Made by a program: the position numbers and the translations under genes
Notes under the pieces: generated by a model
What the model was told of the DNA's origin: nothing
Database searches by the model: none
The model's input: only the letters and a program-made list of their open reading frames with translations
In this document: in pieces, positions 56,911-63,838 of the stretch
Numbering within the stretch: position 1 is the stretch's first letter
Layout: every line of letters starts with the position of its first letter
Assembly: GCF_003762905.1 (NCBI RefSeq)
Contig: NZ_RJKS01000003.1
Location: 434,001-498,000 of the forward strand
Source of the DNA: Curtobacterium sp. ZW137
GTDB lineage: Bacteria; Actinomycetota; Actinomycetes; Actinomycetales; Microbacteriaceae
Reading direction: 5' to 3'
Length of the DNA: 64,000 nt

Positions 56911-56916
56911 AGGTTA
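56911..56916 (-). promoter_or_regulatory. -10 box, leaderless promoter of radA
   Basis: TAACCT on the minus strand, 6 nt before the ATG at 56904. It overlaps the last codons of the upstream GDSL hydrolase gene. Confidence 0.6.
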
Positions 56917-57894
56917 GGCCGCGCCGCCGACATCACCGGCATCGCCGGAGGTGTCGTCGTTTTCGGTGGCGCCGGGCACGGTGATCGACCCGGTCATGCG
57001 CTGCCGGAGCCGGTCGACCCGGCCGGGACGGTGTGCGTGCTCGAGTTCCTCGGCGCCGAGCGTGTCCTGTTCGGCACGCGCGTTCGCCACGGCACCGGCG
57101 TCGCGCCCGAGGTCCTCGGCTTCTCGCGCCGACAGGTAGTGCCGGATCGCGGCGACGGTGTCCACCCGGGCGTCGATCGCCGGTTCGAACGCGCTCGCCC
57201 AGATCTCGTACCCGCGGTCGTTCGGGTGGAACAGGTCACCGTAGGTGTTGAAGAACGTCCGCCGCAGCCCCACTCGGCGCGTGATCGCGTGGAGCGGCGC
57301 CACCGTCAGTCCGAGCTCGTCCGCGACGCGGTGCACGATCTCGTTCGCGACGGCGACCTTGCGCTCGCGGTCGGGGACGAACATGCACGGCAGCTCCGCG
57401 ACGATCGCGTGCGACGGGACCGCGCCGTAGATCGCGCGGAGGTTCCGCTCGAACTTGTCGGGGTGGAAGTCCGCGATGTCGTTCGCGCCGATCGAGACCG
57501 TGCAGACGTCGGGAGTGAAGCTCCGCAGCTTCGGGAGTTGGTCCTTCTTCGCGCCCCACGTCGTCGCACCGGAGACGCTGAGGTTCACGACGCGCACCGT
57601 CTCGCGCGACCGGTGCTTGATCCGGCGGGCGAGCAGGCCGACGTACCCGCGCGACGGGACCGTCGCGCCGACACCCTGCGCCGCGGAGTCGCCGATCGCC
57701 AGGTACGTGATCTCACCCTCGTGGTGGAGTCGTTCGCGCCACCAGTCGGCGTGCGACGGGAGCATGTCGACGACGCGTTGCGCTGCCGCACGCTGGCCCT
57801 TGACGCCGGCCCGGGCGCCGAGGGCGGCGCCGCCGGCGACGACCAGGCCGCCGCCGATCGAGGAGAGCAGGGCGATGAGGGTTCGGGACTTCAT
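56914..57894 (-). CDS. exported SGNH/GDSL-type lipase/esterase
   Basis: 326 residues. Membrane anchor or signal (about 6-30), then an SGNH hydrolase: block I ITYLAIGDSAAQGVGA (nucleophile Ser), NLSVSGATTWG, block III SIGANDIADF, block V LFHPNDRGYEIWA (Asp/His). The C-terminal about 60 residues are charged and low-complexity. Probably an extracytoplasmic esterase; substrate unknown. Just upstream of radA on the same strand. Confidence 0.87.
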   Translation of the reverse strand: MKSRTLIALLSSIGGGLVVAGGAALGARAGVKGQRAAAQRVVDMLPSHADWWRERLHHEGEITYLAIGDSAAQGVGATVPSRGYVGLLARRIKHRSRETVRVVNLSVSGATTWGAKKDQLPKLRSFTPDVCTVSIGANDIADFHPDKFERNLRAIYGAVPSHAIVAELPCMFVPDRERKVAVANEIVHRVADELGLTVAPLHAITRRVGLRRTFFNTYGDLFHPNDRGYEIWASAFEPAIDARVDTVAAIRHYLSAREAEDLGRDAGAVANARAEQDTLGAEELEHAHRPGRVDRLRQRMTGSITVPGATENDDTSGDAGDVGGAA

Positions 57895-58037: not shown

Positions 58038-58127
58038 GGTACCGTGTCCGAGCGGCCGAAGGATCATGTCTCGAAAACATGTGTGGGGGCAACTCCACCG
58101 TGGGTTCAAATCCCACCGGTACCGCCA
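58038..58127 (+). tRNA. tRNA-Ser (CGA)
   Basis: Class II tRNA: acceptor GGTACCG/CGGTACC, anticodon loop CTCGAAA, long variable arm, T-arm GGGTTCAAATCCC, discriminator G (58124), and an encoded CCA (58125-58127). It stands at the edge of the lower-GC accessory region and is a plausible integration site. Confidence 0.96.
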
Positions 58128-58646: not shown

Positions 58647-60452
58647 TTGAACAAACTGCGTGTGCACGAAGTGGCGCAACGAGCTAACGTGTCTTCTCGC
58701 GACGTAATTGAGTGGTTGAAGGCTCAAGGAGAATTTGTCAAGGGGCCATCAAGCGGACTTGAGCCACCCGTCGCACGGAAAGCGCTTCGCGCATTCGGTG
58801 TGGAGGATTTTGAGCAGCCGGCGAAACAATCACGAAGCAGCGCACAGTCTACTAGCAAGACGCACGCGGTTCAGACAACTCCTTCGTCGCGAGAAGTCGG
58901 GTGGCGAGCCGGCTCTGTGAAGCAGCCGATCCATCCTGATTTGCTGACAAAAATGGACGAACTGGGAAGGCGATTTCCAGAATTCGAAAAACACCGCGCC
59001 GCCTTGCGAGAACTCGGCTCGCAGATCGTATTCGCACGTCCTTCCAAAAACCCGAAATTTGCGGATTGTGCTGTTGCGCTGGTGCGGTTTAGTGGTGCAA
59101 TTGAGGCAGGCTTTGGGCTCACGAGGGAACTCCTGATATTCTACGCGCCCCACCATGATTTACAGGTACGCACGTACGAGGCCGCTCTAGCGGAGATCCA
59201 AACGATGGATCGGAAGATAACCCCCGACATCATATTTGTGAGTGCCCCGGACCCCCGCCTCCGGACGAAGCTGGATGACTGGTCATCCTCCACTCCGTCG
59301 CTTCGAGCAATCCCTTTGTCTCAGGACATGGACCCTAACGCCATGGCGTTCATTGGCCTGATTCGTGACTACGTATACAGTCGCGACTTGTTCTACGAGA
59401 CCACTCCGGTACGGGGTGCTCGTTTCTTCGGCCGAAGGACTTTGCTCCAGTCGCTACGCGACGACGTACTAAGCCAACGAGTCTCCGGTGTTTTCGGCTT
59501 GCGCAAAGCTGGCAAGACGAGCGTGCTATTTGAGCTCGCCGACCAGATGCGTCAAGAAAAAGTTATTCCCATCCTTTTGGACCTCGAGGCGTTCCCGTCC
59601 CCACCGGAGGATCCGACCTCGGAGATCCTTGCGGACCTGAGACGGCGATGCCTAGAGGAGCTGCGCGACCGAAAACTTCGTACCAAAGAGCTTGCTGAAC
59701 TGTCGACCTCACCGTCGATCGTTGAATTCAAGACGGCACTTCAAGCCCTGCTGCGCAGACTTGCCCCTGACGGTATTCAGCTGCTCATAATGCTCGACGA
59801 GATTGAGTACCTCACTCCCGCAGATAAGGTCGACATTGCCGAAGGGGACATGCCTCGAATCGCCCAATTGCTGGCATCATTGCGGAGTTTGGTTCAAGAG
59901 GCATCGAACTTCACCTTCATGCTCGCTGGCCTGACCAGTGCGATCATTGAGAGTGGGCGTTTGTATGGCAGGCCGAATCCGCTTTTCTCCTGGGCGAAAG
60001 CCTATTACGTCGGACCTTTCGCTCGCGATGAGGCTGATGACCTCGCGCTCGCAACTGGCGCGAAAATGGGTATTGAGATCGAAGAGAAGGCGCTCGAAGC
60101 ACTATTCGAAGCGTCCGGTGGCCACGCATTTCTCTATCGCAACTTTGCGTCGGAGGTCGTCGGTGCCCTTCCTACTGAAGTTTTCAGGAGAATAATCACG
60201 CGCCCACTGGTACTTTCCCGTTTGATGGACTGGAAGGCTCAGGTCGGGGGACATATCTCGGAAATGGTTCAGCATGTCACGCGGTATTATTCGACCGAAT
60301 CGGTGCTACTCGATGTTCTTCGCGAGTACCCGGATGAGTTCCTTCAGCTGGCGGAGGATGAGCCGCAAGCGTTAAGGCACCTGCTCGATCTTGGCCTGGT
60401 GCGTAAGGTGGAGCATCACTATGAACTCAACTCCTTGCTGGATCTTGTCTGA
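58647..60452 (+). CDS. P-loop ATPase (STAND/AAA-like) with IF2-type N-terminal domain
   Basis: 601 residues. Residues 2-50 ([40 protein letters not shown]) match the small N-terminal domain of translation initiation factor IF2. A Ser/Gln linker (about 53-85) and a middle domain (about 95-265) of alternating strands and helices follow. Next is a P-loop module with Walker [14 protein letters not shown] (Lys about 290) and Walker [12 protein letters not shown] (Asp-Glu about 384), then a helical region with ATPase-sensor and winged-helix look (about 430-601). Not IF2 itself: there is no GTPase domain. TTG start with GGGGGAA just upstream. The stop overlaps the next gene. Lower GC than its surroundings. 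Confidence 0.7.
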
Positions 60453-61576
60453 TGGCCAGGGAAGACTATAAGACCGAGTGGGTGAATGGCGTTCTGCAGC
60501 AGGCCCGGCAGTTTGGGCTCATCTTCGTGCAGCTCGGGGCGACGCAGGCTCCGCTAGTGAGTCTTGTTTGTGAACAAGAGCATTGTTTCAGCGTGGAAGA
60601 ATACGTCTCGTTGCGGGCCGGAGCTCGAGGTGCCACGCCGACGTTCGTCCTCGGCCTGCGACCCGAGAAACTGGGGGAGGATCCAAAATCGCCCACTCTC
60701 GGGTTGTTGAGAGAGCGCGTCATGGACGACATGGCTGCTGGCGGTCGGGTCGTATTGGTTTCAGCTGCTCCCCGCGTGGCCTATCCTCCGGTGCCGGGAA
60801 GCTCACTCCTTGAAGACGCCAAGTTCGTTGCGGGTCCTCTCGCTCCGATTCCGGTGGACGCAAACGCGGTTCCGGAAGCTGTGTTACCGGTGTGCCGCGA
60901 GAATGAATCGCCTCTGCAGGAAGTGCTAGAAGCTTCATTGCGTGAACTGGGGCTCGAAGTTTGTGCGTCGTTGGATCATGCTTTATTCGAGGCTGCGCTC
61001 GACCCTGCCGATTTGTTTAGTACATTGACTTCTCGCGAGGTCGAAGCCCTTCGAGGGGCGTCTCTCGTTCGAACGAGTACTTCCGGGCCCGAATGGACAA
61101 TGCCGCTTCGGATAAGCGAATTGAGGGATGCGCTCAGCGAGGTCTTGTCGGATCAGACCGAGACGCAGGAAGCGTTGGGCGCGGTCTTTGCTAGTTTATG
61201 GAGCATCGAGAGGTCTGTAAGGCGCGCACTTCGGATTCGAGCCATCGAGCTTTGGGGGGCGAGGTGGAGGCGGCAAGTGCTAGCGGGGGACCTCAAGGAG
61301 AAAGTTGAAGGAAGGGCGAAGACGTCAGCCTATGCGGTGGCGTCAAGCATCTCACAAATTCGTGATCCTCTTGAGTGGTTGACCATGGGCGAACTGCTGG
61401 AGACTCGTGCAAGAAGTCAGATTGGCGATCTTGGACTCGAAGAGCCGCTTTGGAAGACGCTTGCGAACGAGGTGTTGCCTGTGCGAAACCAGATCTCGCA
61501 CATGCGACTGCTGCGCCCAACTGACCTGGGCACAGTGCTGAAATGGGCAAAGGTTGTGCAGGTCAAGCTGAGGTGA
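60452..61576 (+). CDS. partner protein with C-terminal HEPN-like RNase motif
   Basis: 374 residues, coupled to the ATPase gene (TGATGG, one shared base). Residues 1-150 look like an alpha/beta domain (FGLIFVQLGATQAPLVSLV, GRVVLVSAAPRVAYPP); the middle is winged-helix-like. The C-terminal about 130 residues are all-helical and end with VLPVRNQISHMR, in which RNQISH (345-350) is the Rx4H motif of HEPN ribonucleases. Not recognised as any named family. The pairing suggests that an ATPase sensor controls an RNA-cutting effector (inference). Confidence 0.6.
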   Translation: MAREDYKTEWVNGVLQQARQFGLIFVQLGATQAPLVSLVCEQEHCFSVEEYVSLRAGARGATPTFVLGLRPEKLGEDPKSPTLGLLRERVMDDMAAGGRVVLVSAAPRVAYPPVPGSSLLEDAKFVAGPLAPIPVDANAVPEAVLPVCRENESPLQEVLEASLRELGLEVCASLDHALFEAALDPADLFSTLTSREVEALRGASLVRTSTSGPEWTMPLRISELRDALSEVLSDQTETQEALGAVFASLWSIERSVRRALRIRAIELWGARWRRQVLAGDLKEKVEGRAKTSAYAVASSISQIRDPLEWLTMGELLETRARSQIGDLGLEEPLWKTLANEVLPVRNQISHMRLLRPTDLGTVLKWAKVVQVKLR

Positions 61577-61755: not shown

Positions 61756-61818
61756 ATGCCCGAGATGCAGTCTGTTCAGGCGGCGCCAAGTCGTCGCCGA
61801 CGATGCGGCACACGATGA
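61756..61818 (+). CDS. 20-residue leader frame coupled to nuclease-like gene
   Basis: Begins at the site where a leaderless transcript from 61744 would start. Encodes MPEMQSVQAA then a basic end with RRRRCGTR. Its TGA (61816-61818) overlaps the ATG at 61815 as ATGA, so ribosomes ending here could restart on the next frame. Confidence 0.45.
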   Translation: MPEMQSVQAAPSRRRRCGTR

Positions 61819-62612
61819 CCGGGGCCGTCACCACGTCGTCGAAGACGCCAGCCATGGGGGGCAGATTCCGGTACGAGACGGACCTCGTAGACGCGCTCGC
61901 ACCTGTTGTGGCGCACTCCGTCTTTCGGCGGGGAGATCCCGACGTCGTCACGTTCCGGGAAGTCCCCGCAGTGCGGGGGGTGCCGGATCTGGTGATGATC
62001 CGATTCGACCCGGTCGTGCTCGCGGCCCGCGCCGAACACGCGGTCAAGCCCTTGAGCGGTGATCGTGAGGTGCGAATCGTGCAGCTTCTCCGACGAGCGG
62101 GCAGCCTTGATCGCGGCGGCATCGCTCGAGCAACGGGGCTGCCACTGGAGTACCTCCGGCGCTCAGCACTGCCGATGCTGGAGCAGCTCGGGTGGCTACA
62201 GATGCACGCCGGAGACGTCATGCTTCGCCCGGGCACAGCGCCAGTGGGCCGACGCGTCGTCACCGTCGAGGCGAAGCTGCGCGACTGGTTCCGTGCATTC
62301 AACCAGGCCCGCGACCAGTTCCACTCCGCCGACGCGGCATACATCGCACTCGATGAACGCGCCGGCGGCCCGCTGCAGGACCAGGTGGACGCCATCGCTC
62401 AGCGTGGCGTCGGCGTGATCCTGGTCAACGCCGACACGAACCGGCACCGCGTCATCGCGCGCCCACATCGAGTGCTCGACCGCCGGATGACCTCGGTTGG
62501 TCGTGAGCTGCTTTCCGAGCGAAGCCACGCTCTCTGGTCACGCGGAGAACGCTCTGGGCAGGTGTCACCCGTGTTCGGCTGGTATCCGCCGACCAGCACA
62601 CATCACAACTGA
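61815..62612 (+). CDS. PD-(D/E)XK nuclease-like protein with internal winged helix
   Basis: 265 residues. Nuclease-fold residues in order: Glu 21 (FRYETDLVDAL), Asp 58 (VRGVPDLVMIRF), and Glu 152/Lys 154 in VVTVEAKLRDW, then ALDERAGG and GVGVILVNADTN strands. Between Asp 58 and Glu 152 a winged helix is inserted (about 83-138: VRIVQLLRRAGSLDRGGIAR, TGLPLEYLRRSALPMLEQLG). It may be a restriction-like or repair-type nuclease directed by its own DNA-binding unit. The start at 61815 is chosen for the ATGA coupling; the ATG at 61803 in the same frame is possible. Confidence 0.65.
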   Translation: MTGAVTTSSKTPAMGGRFRYETDLVDALAPVVAHSVFRRGDPDVVTFREVPAVRGVPDLVMIRFDPVVLAARAEHAVKPLSGDREVRIVQLLRRAGSLDRGGIARATGLPLEYLRRSALPMLEQLGWLQMHAGDVMLRPGTAPVGRRVVTVEAKLRDWFRAFNQARDQFHSADAAYIALDERAGGPLQDQVDAIAQRGVGVILVNADTNRHRVIARPHRVLDRRMTSVGRELLSERSHALWSRGERSGQVSPVFGWYPPTSTHHN

Positions 62613-62641: not shown

Positions 62642-63838
62642 TCAGCGGACCGTCTGCCAGACCGGGAGGTGGGTTGGGCTGTTGGCCCCGGCCGGCTTAT
62701 CGACCTGTGCCAGTGCGTTCACCCATCCCTGCCCGCGATCGATCGCACGGTGCGCGAAAGCGGCACGGCCCGCAGGCTGCATCTTGGCCTGCAAGTTCCC
62801 GACCGCGTTGAGGTAATGCAAGCCAGCGACCGGTTTGGAGTGCCCGTCCGTGGCGATCTCATCGAGGAACCTGGTCCGGAAATCGCGGTGGCCGGGGAGG
62901 GCTCGGAGACGGTCGAAGACGGCGGCGTCCATCGTGTGCAGCAGGAACCGGTCGAAGATCCGCGGGATCTCCTTCGGGGGTGTCTGCCCGGGCCGGCGAC
63001 CCATTCGCCGTGCTCGCGCAAAGGTCTGATCGGCAGCTGAAGCACCGGTCGAGAACCCTGCAGCGCCGAACGCACCCATTAGCCACCCAGTGAGGGACGC
63101 GTTGGCGAGGAACAGCTTCTTATCTTCGAGCGCAGCAGTCTCGGTGAGGAGGCGGTACCCGCGGAGGATGTCCGGGTCAGCGAGCTGGCCATAAGAGTTC
63201 GCCGATTCTGGCCACCAGAACCGTAGGTACCAGTGCTGCTCGTTCGACTCCACGATCTCGCGAAGCAGCAGGTTTCGTAGCTCCCGGTTGATCAGCCACT
63301 CCTTGTCCATCGTCAGGTTGACGAACATGGGACTGTCTTCCACGACTGCTCGGCTCGCGCGCACGATCAGCATCGCCTGGTCCAGCGCGGCCGCGGCGTT
63401 GATCGTCCCGACCCACCCGGTGGCCGAGAGTGCCACGGTGGCGCCCACCCGGTACTGGGCCTGGATGACGCTGCGGATCCACGCCGCGTCCACGGTGGTG
63501 GGGAGTGTGTTGTAGAACGTGAAGGTGGGATCGCGCCGCGCAGGCTCGATCGTTGCCATCCCTTCCCAAGTGGAGAGCGGGTGGCGGAACAGGACGGGGT
63601 CAGCGATCCGCAGCGGGACGGTGCCGACCGAGGAGAAGTACTTGTCGATCGCGGCCTCGGTGTTGCCCCACATCTTCATCGCAGTCCCGACGCCGAGCTT
63701 CTTGCCGTGATCGGTCATCAGCGCGTCAAACACCTCCGGAAGCCGATGCATGTGCTGTGCGCTGCGCTGAGTGATGAAGGTGGGCGCCTTCCCACGGAGC
63801 ATGCGGTTCAGGGAAGCGGTGGTGGATTGGTCAGTCAC
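62642..63838 (-). CDS. unrecognised 398-residue protein, TIM-barrel-like strand pattern
   Basis: GTG start overlapping the stop of the upstream gene (GTGA). A helical N-terminus is followed by regularly spaced hydrophobic strands each ending in small or polar residues (VPLRIADPVLF, GATVALSATGWVG, PMFVNLTMDKEW, HWYLRFWWPES, KKLFLANASLTGWLMGAFGA). This is the pattern of a (beta/alpha)8 barrel such as tRNA-guanine-transglycosylase-like enzymes, but no family motif is certain. No signal peptide or membrane helix. Convergent with the nuclease-like gene, 29 bp apart. Confidence 0.55.
   Translation of the reverse strand: MTDQSTTASLNRMLRGKAPTFITQRSAQHMHRLPEVFDALMTDHGKKLGVGTAMKMWGNTEAAIDKYFSSVGTVPLRIADPVLFRHPLSTWEGMATIEPARRDPTFTFYNTLPTTVDAAWIRSVIQAQYRVGATVALSATGWVGTINAAAALDQAMLIVRASRAVVEDSPMFVNLTMDKEWLINRELRNLLLREIVESNEQHWYLRFWWPESANSYGQLADPDILRGYRLLTETAALEDKKLFLANASLTGWLMGAFGAAGFSTGASAADQTFARARRMGRRPGQTPPKEIPRIFDRFLLHTMDAAVFDRLRALPGHRDFRTRFLDEIATDGHSKPVAGLHYLNAVGNLQAKMQPAGRAAFAHRAIDRGQGWVNALAQVDKPAGANSPTHLPVWQTVR

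Follow-up and report, generated by a model that had tools for sequence, protein, structure and literature searches.

Coupling of HEPN RNases to STAND ATPases in proteins with RNA-binding domains was described in 2013, and the sections of that report cited here present Abi2/Swt1-like HEPN domains fused to a STAND ATPase, tetratricopeptide repeats (TPRs) and S1 domains, as well as HEPN-STAND proteins with cold-shock-like OB folds (PMC3710099). Likewise, the cited part of a later source presents CoCoNuT systems of types II and III with an NTPase, a HEPN RNase, an SmpB-like OB fold, Hsp70, YTH and cold-shock domains (PMC11090510). Here we describe a two-gene cassette of Curtobacterium sp. ZW137, which is of the kind described in 2013, as far as the cited sections of PMC3710099 delimit it. 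It is located at positions 58647-61576 of a 64,000-nucleotide stretch of genomic DNA (the window; coordinates are positions in this window unless a locus label such as L010 is given). Computation established its domain composition, the conservation of its motifs, the constant pairing of its two genes and its hotspot position, and our confidence in the domain composition and the pairing is high. We propose, with a probability of about 0.6, that the cassette encodes a two-component STAND-type immune switch, in which an ATPase would gate an RNase of the abortive-infection type.

The cassette resembles the proteins in the cited sections of PMC3710099 in that HEPN is coupled to a STAND ATPase and to a domain that derives from RNA or translation proteins, but the proteins presented there are single chains with S1 or cold-shock folds, whereas the cassette has two genes, an IF2_N domain and a HEPN subunit with a probably STAND-like half that lacks a P-loop. 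Neither "IF2" nor "initiation factor" occurs in the main text of that paper. CoCoNuT systems share the combination of an NTPase with a HEPN RNase and translation-related domains, but differ in their McrB-type GTPase, coiled coils and several genes, and IF2_N is not among the domains named in the cited part of the source (PMC11090510); a general Pfam scan, with no dedicated test, returned no McrB family among the six matches of gene 1 at E<=1. Avs and other STAND sensors also combine a STAND ATPase switch with an effector, and fold searches with our proteins listed Avs4 and EfAvs5. However, an Avs protein is one long chain (1541 residues in 8dgf) rather than the product of two genes of 601 and 374 residues, and no Avs model of PADLOC matched either gene at E<=1. 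PDC-M34 of PADLOC is similar in that its M34B model matches gene 2 (E 3.1e-5), but the match covers the HEPN part only and gene 1 is matched by no PDC-M34 model at E<=1; PDC-M34 is not mentioned in the open-licence PMC full texts searched. Csm6 is another HEPN RNase, but it has a CARF domain, whereas the remainder of gene 2 matches STAND/AAA+ folds. In the open-licence PMC literature searched, we found no description of this pair, of IF2_N in such systems, of the two-gene split, or of a P-loop-less STAND-like/HEPN subunit. The cassette comprises the following features.

58647-60452, plus strand: gene 1, STAND ATPase of 601 residues, TTG start
58647-58805, plus strand: IF2_N domain (PF04760), gene 1 residues 1-53
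58887-59372, plus strand: conserved alpha/beta module, gene 1 residues about 81-242, delimited by invariant columns and the secondary structure of the model
59385-60449, plus strand: STAND ATPase core with lid and winged helix, gene 1 residues 247-601
59496-59522, plus strand: Walker A of gene 1 (K290)
59781-59813, plus strand: Walker B of gene 1 (D384, E385)
60452-61576, plus strand: gene 2, putative STAND-like/HEPN partner of 374 residues, ATG start
60455-61141, plus strand: probable STAND/AAA+-like half without P-loop, gene 2 residues 2-230
61163-61573, plus strand: predicted HEPN domain, gene 2 residues 238-374
61484-61501, plus strand: predicted RNase motif RNQISH (Rx4H), gene 2 R345 to H350

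A first-pass annotation, made from the sequence alone, had reported a TTG-started ATPase of 601 residues overlapping by one base a protein of 374 residues, and both open reading frames (ORFs) were confirmed, with the stop of gene 1 and the start of gene 2 overlapping in the sequence TGATG. Its assignment of the first 50 residues to the IF2 N-terminal domain also held: PF04760 (IF2_N) matched gene 1 over residues 1-53 with E 4.7e-9 and a score of 36.3 bits, above the gathering cut-off of 25.3, and residues 3-49 are 64% identical to the IF-2 of the same genome. The annotation had further read gene 1 as a P-loop ATPase and had pointed to STAND/AAA ATPases as sensors in defence systems. In a hand-picked alignment of 39 rows (A1, our protein and 38 of the 120 listed ATPase relatives), Walker A as GLRK[AS]GKTS and Walker B as DE[IV]EYL were present in 39/39 rows, and the model combines both motifs with a STAND fold and a winged helix. 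Five ATPase models of Pfam matched gene 1, all under their cut-offs. We found no C-terminal repeat sensor in gene 1: the ATPase and the winged helix reach residue 601 of 601, and no Pfam repeat family matched. Overall, the interpretation in the first-pass annotation was partly supported; it had overlooked both the gene 1 module of residues 81-242 and the half of gene 2 that is probably STAND-like and lacks a P-loop. No match for the fold of the gene 1 module emerged from the fold lists of gene 1, which the ATPase part fills. Sequence searches of the PDB with gene 1, gene 2, the profile of the gene 2 alignment described below and the IF2_N stretch gave no convincing match, and a similarity of gene 1 to pentatricopeptide repeats (E 0.036 and worse) was dismissed as chance.

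Gene 2 likely encodes a HEPN RNase, as suggested by its motif together with the HEPN-like fold of its model. The C-terminal part of the model forms the helical bundle of HEPN domains, in line with the earlier reading of gene 2 as a HEPN-motif protein with RNQISH, for which structure prediction had been proposed as a check. In a second hand-picked alignment (A2, 41 rows: our protein and 40 of the 86 other gene 2 relatives), Rx4H occurred within the last 80 residues in every row and R[NH][QR]..HM in 40 of the 41, with R345 and H350 as invariant columns. The PDC-M34B model had a single match in this genome, at gene 2, and none in 14 control genomes. Among the 87 relatives listed, UniRef labels three "Swt1-like HEPN domain-containing"; Pfam returned no family for gene 2 at E<=1, so the Swt1-like HEPN family (PF18731) was not detected. 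The first 230 residues of gene 2 are likely STAND-like, since the model and its fold matches resemble a second STAND/AAA+ module, and no row of A2 (0/41) contains a P-loop, so that gene 2 does not combine a P-loop with a STAND fold as gene 1 does.

The two genes are consistently found together. Protein 1 has 356 relatives (E<=1e-5) and protein 2 has 87 (E<=1e-3, own copy included), which excludes a pair arising by chance. We searched genome contigs for relatives of gene 1, and the best 80 of 107 matches correspond to 79 distinct loci, of which 20 (L003-L022) belong to 19 actinobacterial genomes, L019 and L022 being two contigs of one genome. Gene 2 directly follows gene 1 in 18/18 of those actinobacterial loci whose contig extends past gene 1 (the contigs of L006 and L019 break off within it), which answers the check on co-occurrence across actinobacteria proposed in the first-pass annotation. 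The distances of the two proteins are strongly correlated (Mantel r 0.924 for 18 sequences from 17 loci and the window; 0/5000 permutations reached this value). The cassette is rare: full-length gene 2 was found in 2/394 genomes of the class and 2/398 of the family, own included in both, and gene 1 in 2/398 family genomes, with one more distant ATPase (G252). The class search gave a third gene 2 match covering positions 238-370 only (G455, E 7.7e-6). In both full-length matches outside the window (G265 and G707, apparently identical to the genomes of L003 and L012), an ATPase lies immediately upstream. In Herbiconiux daphne (L010:9830-11571), the HEPN gene is split across two reading frames and lies beside an Avs2-like gene.

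STAND ATPases are held closed and open upon nucleotide exchange, and HEPN RNases are active as dimers. In the mechanism that we propose, gene 1 would be the ATP-driven STAND switch, whose IF2-like N-terminal domain and module of about 160 residues would tether it to a host target or let it monitor one. The most plausible target would be an IF2 partner at the 30S initiation complex or in transcription-translation coupling. Gene 2 would be a dead-ATPase STAND-like subunit bearing the HEPN RNase, and the two subunits would assemble through their STAND cores into a closed complex that keeps HEPN activity in check. A disturbance of the target, for example by phage infection, would make gene 1 exchange its nucleotide and the complex rearrange, so that two HEPN domains could dimerise and cut RNA, leading to growth stop or death of the infected cell. 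If true, an active STAND switch and a STAND-like RNase carrier with a dead ATPase would split the work between them.

The same gene pair could also be read as a toxin-antitoxin or addiction module, in which the HEPN RNase of gene 2 would be a toxin neutralised by gene 1 for maintenance of the element rather than for phage sensing. The overlap of the two genes, the toxin-like HEPN motif and the hotspot position suit such a module, and HEPN/MNT modules are such systems according to the cited part of PMC7641770. On the other hand, both subunits look STAND-like, and the possible single-chain fusions described below would unite toxin and antitoxin in one protein. A multi-domain partner of 601 residues is also larger than a usual antitoxin. 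We therefore regard an addiction module as unlikely, and favour the immune switch.

The IF2-like domain is the obvious candidate for positioning the switch or for sensing. In the cited part of PMC12297416, Domain I of E. coli IF2, including the N1 domain of 50 residues, binds NusA, by model at KH2/AR1; the binding nearly vanishes once the C terminus of NusA is deleted, and the function of N1 is called long obscure. The 64% identity of the gene 1 domain to host IF-2, despite the foreign GC (guanine plus cytosine) content of the gene, suggests a constraint to bind an IF2 partner. IF2_N could be an integrated decoy of host IF2, and phage interference with initiation or with transcription-translation coupling would free the HEPN RNase from its dead-ATPase partner. 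Under this model, the bacterium would guard its initiation machinery by means of the cassette, and lineages would swap the bait domain, which is IF2_N here and a cold-shock domain in L031. We consider this decoy model speculative and rather unlikely as it stands. If true, an immune ATPase has borrowed a domain from the host's own initiation factor, and the N1 domain of IF2 serves as bait in conflict with phages.

NusA was considered as the target and is retained as a possibility only, since the NusA of this genome (L111:4780-5790, assigned by sequence and its place beside infB) appears by eye to end soon after KH2, and the exact IF2-NusA contact cannot be assumed here. A second candidate would be the 30S initiation complex. 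Of the 19 actinobacterial loci that include the beginning of gene 1, 16 encode IF2_N, whereas L012, L013 and L020 keep the gene pair but lack the domain, so docking through IF2_N cannot be required; in the distant loci, no match below E 0.3 was found. A plain helical module binding nucleic acid or protein, unrelated to initiation, with the module at residues 81-242 and the ATPase alone reading the trigger, would fit this patchy occurrence and a host NusA that apparently lacks the AR domains required by Domain I of E. coli IF2 (cited part of PMC12297416). The identity to host IF-2 retained in a gene of foreign GC is harder to reconcile with it. This plain-module explanation is a real possibility, somewhat short of an even chance, and it concerns the sensing step only, being otherwise compatible with the immune switch.

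The genomic context is that of a mobile region, whose left edge is marked by a tRNA gene.

58038-58127, plus strand: tRNA-Ser (CGA), detected by ARAGORN, left edge of the variable region

The first-pass annotation had pointed to a lower GC content and a tRNA-side position, and both were borne out. The GC content is 55.4% in gene 1 and 58.2% in gene 2, against 71.2% in positions 1-58000 of the window, and third-position GC is 60% and 62%, respectively, against 88-91% in two genes left of the tRNA. In all six sister loci compared, DNA similarity stops at, or at most 70 bases past, the 3' end of the tRNA (last matching positions 2130, 2196, 2131, 2130, 2131 and 2173 of the compared stretch, in which the tRNA ends at 2128), and none of the six had a further match (E 1e-8) to 40 kb of this genome. 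Of the 66 genus genomes searched, 65, own included, contain a relative of the gene that precedes the tRNA on its left (56914-57894), whereas the gene at 62642-63838 was found in this genome only (1/66). The tRNA-Ser site therefore looks like a hotspot of replacement, as judged from these comparisons. Only one of the 15 sister pairs (L097 and L099) shares same-strand DNA right of the tRNA in pieces above 150 bases; the shared DNA is diverged (65-72% identity), so some contents of the hotspot recur. A 6-kb piece of one sister hotspot (L096) gave a single match of 357 bases (74%) to this genome, and a 20-kb piece from further right here (L094) gave many short matches to three sisters, with no clear counterpart among the matches listed.

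Neighbours of the 18 loci match many PADLOC families. We scanned 118 of 139 roughly picked ORFs around the 18 loci with PADLOC (E<=1e-6), and they jointly matched 78 families, counted as families and not as ORFs, among them Avs2, PDC-S39, PDC-S48, capP and mad2/mad3; the Avs2 neighbour beside L010 matched with E 3.4e-151. Part of the matches are TrwC-type relaxases that also score with RecD-like models, and four of seven long neighbours rescanned had no PADLOC match. Pfam identified TrwC relaxase in three ORFs and phage integrase in three. By comparison, 49 control ORFs from the window core and the infB region matched only two PADLOC families, mad3 and mad8.

These surroundings also bear on whether the cassette could be an accessory regulator of RNA or translation, mobile and non-immune, acting in stress response or RNA quality control, with IF2_N placing it at initiation complexes. 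The identity of IF2_N to host IF-2 would fit such a role, as would the cold-shock domain that precedes the ATPase in L031, but the rarity of the cassette in the class and the family, the replacement at the hotspot, the many PADLOC families among the neighbours and the relatives on viral contigs speak against it. We judge this regulator improbable, and less so the addiction module; the immune switch accommodates the observations best.

The 59 distant loci (L023-L081) have 22-31% identity. We chose 29 distant ATPase frames for running past the ATPase, some of which have a close upstream ORF. By eye, 27 of the 29 tails end with R-x-[DE]-[AC]-H (Rx3H), L078 contains RNPVDH (Rx4H) and L055 neither, and their C termini aligned with the HEPN region of gene 2 over 114 columns (hhalign, E 1.8e-4). 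Of three such proteins scanned with PADLOC, L026 weakly matched PDC-M34B (E 0.0065). Some distant relatives may thus fuse the ATPase and HEPN in a single protein, going by these sequence comparisons. The Fimbriimonadales locus L031:7200-11002 encodes a protein with a cold-shock domain and TPRs ahead of a STAND ATPase and, downstream of it, a second ATPase that terminates in a PDC-M34B-like HEPN. The downstream ATPase matched PDC-M34B (E 1.6e-6), with TrmB and HEPN models below cut-off, including Swt1-like HEPN (PF18731, E 0.028). L031 is likely a cousin system with another bait domain. Cyanobacterial loci combine long fused ATPases with a partner of about 400 residues, and hhalign shows homology of this partner family (E 3.9e-9) and of the Sorangium partners (E 2.5e-6) to the ATPase of gene 1, which fits a plan of two STAND subunits. 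Such systems may generally pair a STAND ATPase with another STAND-like subunit, which bears an effector in some lineages.

Besides the limits on IF2_N docking given above, several results weigh against the immune switch as we propose it. For gene 2, the VIA Z values of 6-7.4 possibly reflect a common arrangement only, the Foldseek TM-scores were 0.16-0.28 with no row reaching E 0.001, and hhalign found no sequence kinship of its N-terminal half to gene 1 or the partner ATPases, so that the STAND-like assignment comes solely from fold matches. The Mantel result fits joint inheritance alone as well as co-evolution. The hhalign link to the 29 distant tails has only 48% probability, and the motif there is mostly Rx3H; L041 and L043 had no PDC-M34B match, and the C terminus of L026 had no Pfam match. 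The gene 2 profile aligned weakly with the L031 partner (40 columns, E 0.0057, 6% probability). The PADLOC control was small and from a single genome, and since mad3 and mad8 matched in it as well, the mad2/mad3 matches of the neighbours are unspecific. A search for the tRNA 3' end in the genome with at most two mismatches returned the tRNA itself only and thus no att repeat.

Among the more remote material, plasmids contained three distant ATPases and no gene 2 relative. No IF2_N-type copy was found on viral contigs; two distant relatives, STAND ATPases with the tail GRP[DE]AHAK, are located on viral (IMG/VR) contigs (L116:5764-7803 and L117:4873-6906), and these tails are perhaps a C-terminal HEPN. 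The ATPase partners in L045, L056, L061 and L075 have a P-loop (L061 and L075) or a P-loop-like stretch (L045 and L056), and all four show near their end an LHDR pattern reminiscent of phospholipase-D-like domains, perhaps an effector. The right end of the island was not found in the 38 kb right of the tRNA. Next to the cassette in the window, a protein of 269 residues (61803-62612, plus strand) directly follows gene 2; it matched no Pfam or PADLOC family above cut-off, and its pattern VPDLVM...VEAK resembles a PD-(D/E)xK nuclease motif. Further right, a protein of 398 residues (62642-63838, minus strand) adjoins an ORF that by eye resembles a Ser/Thr protein kinase (L093:7836-8549, minus strand), and the two could make up another two-gene cassette of this hotspot.

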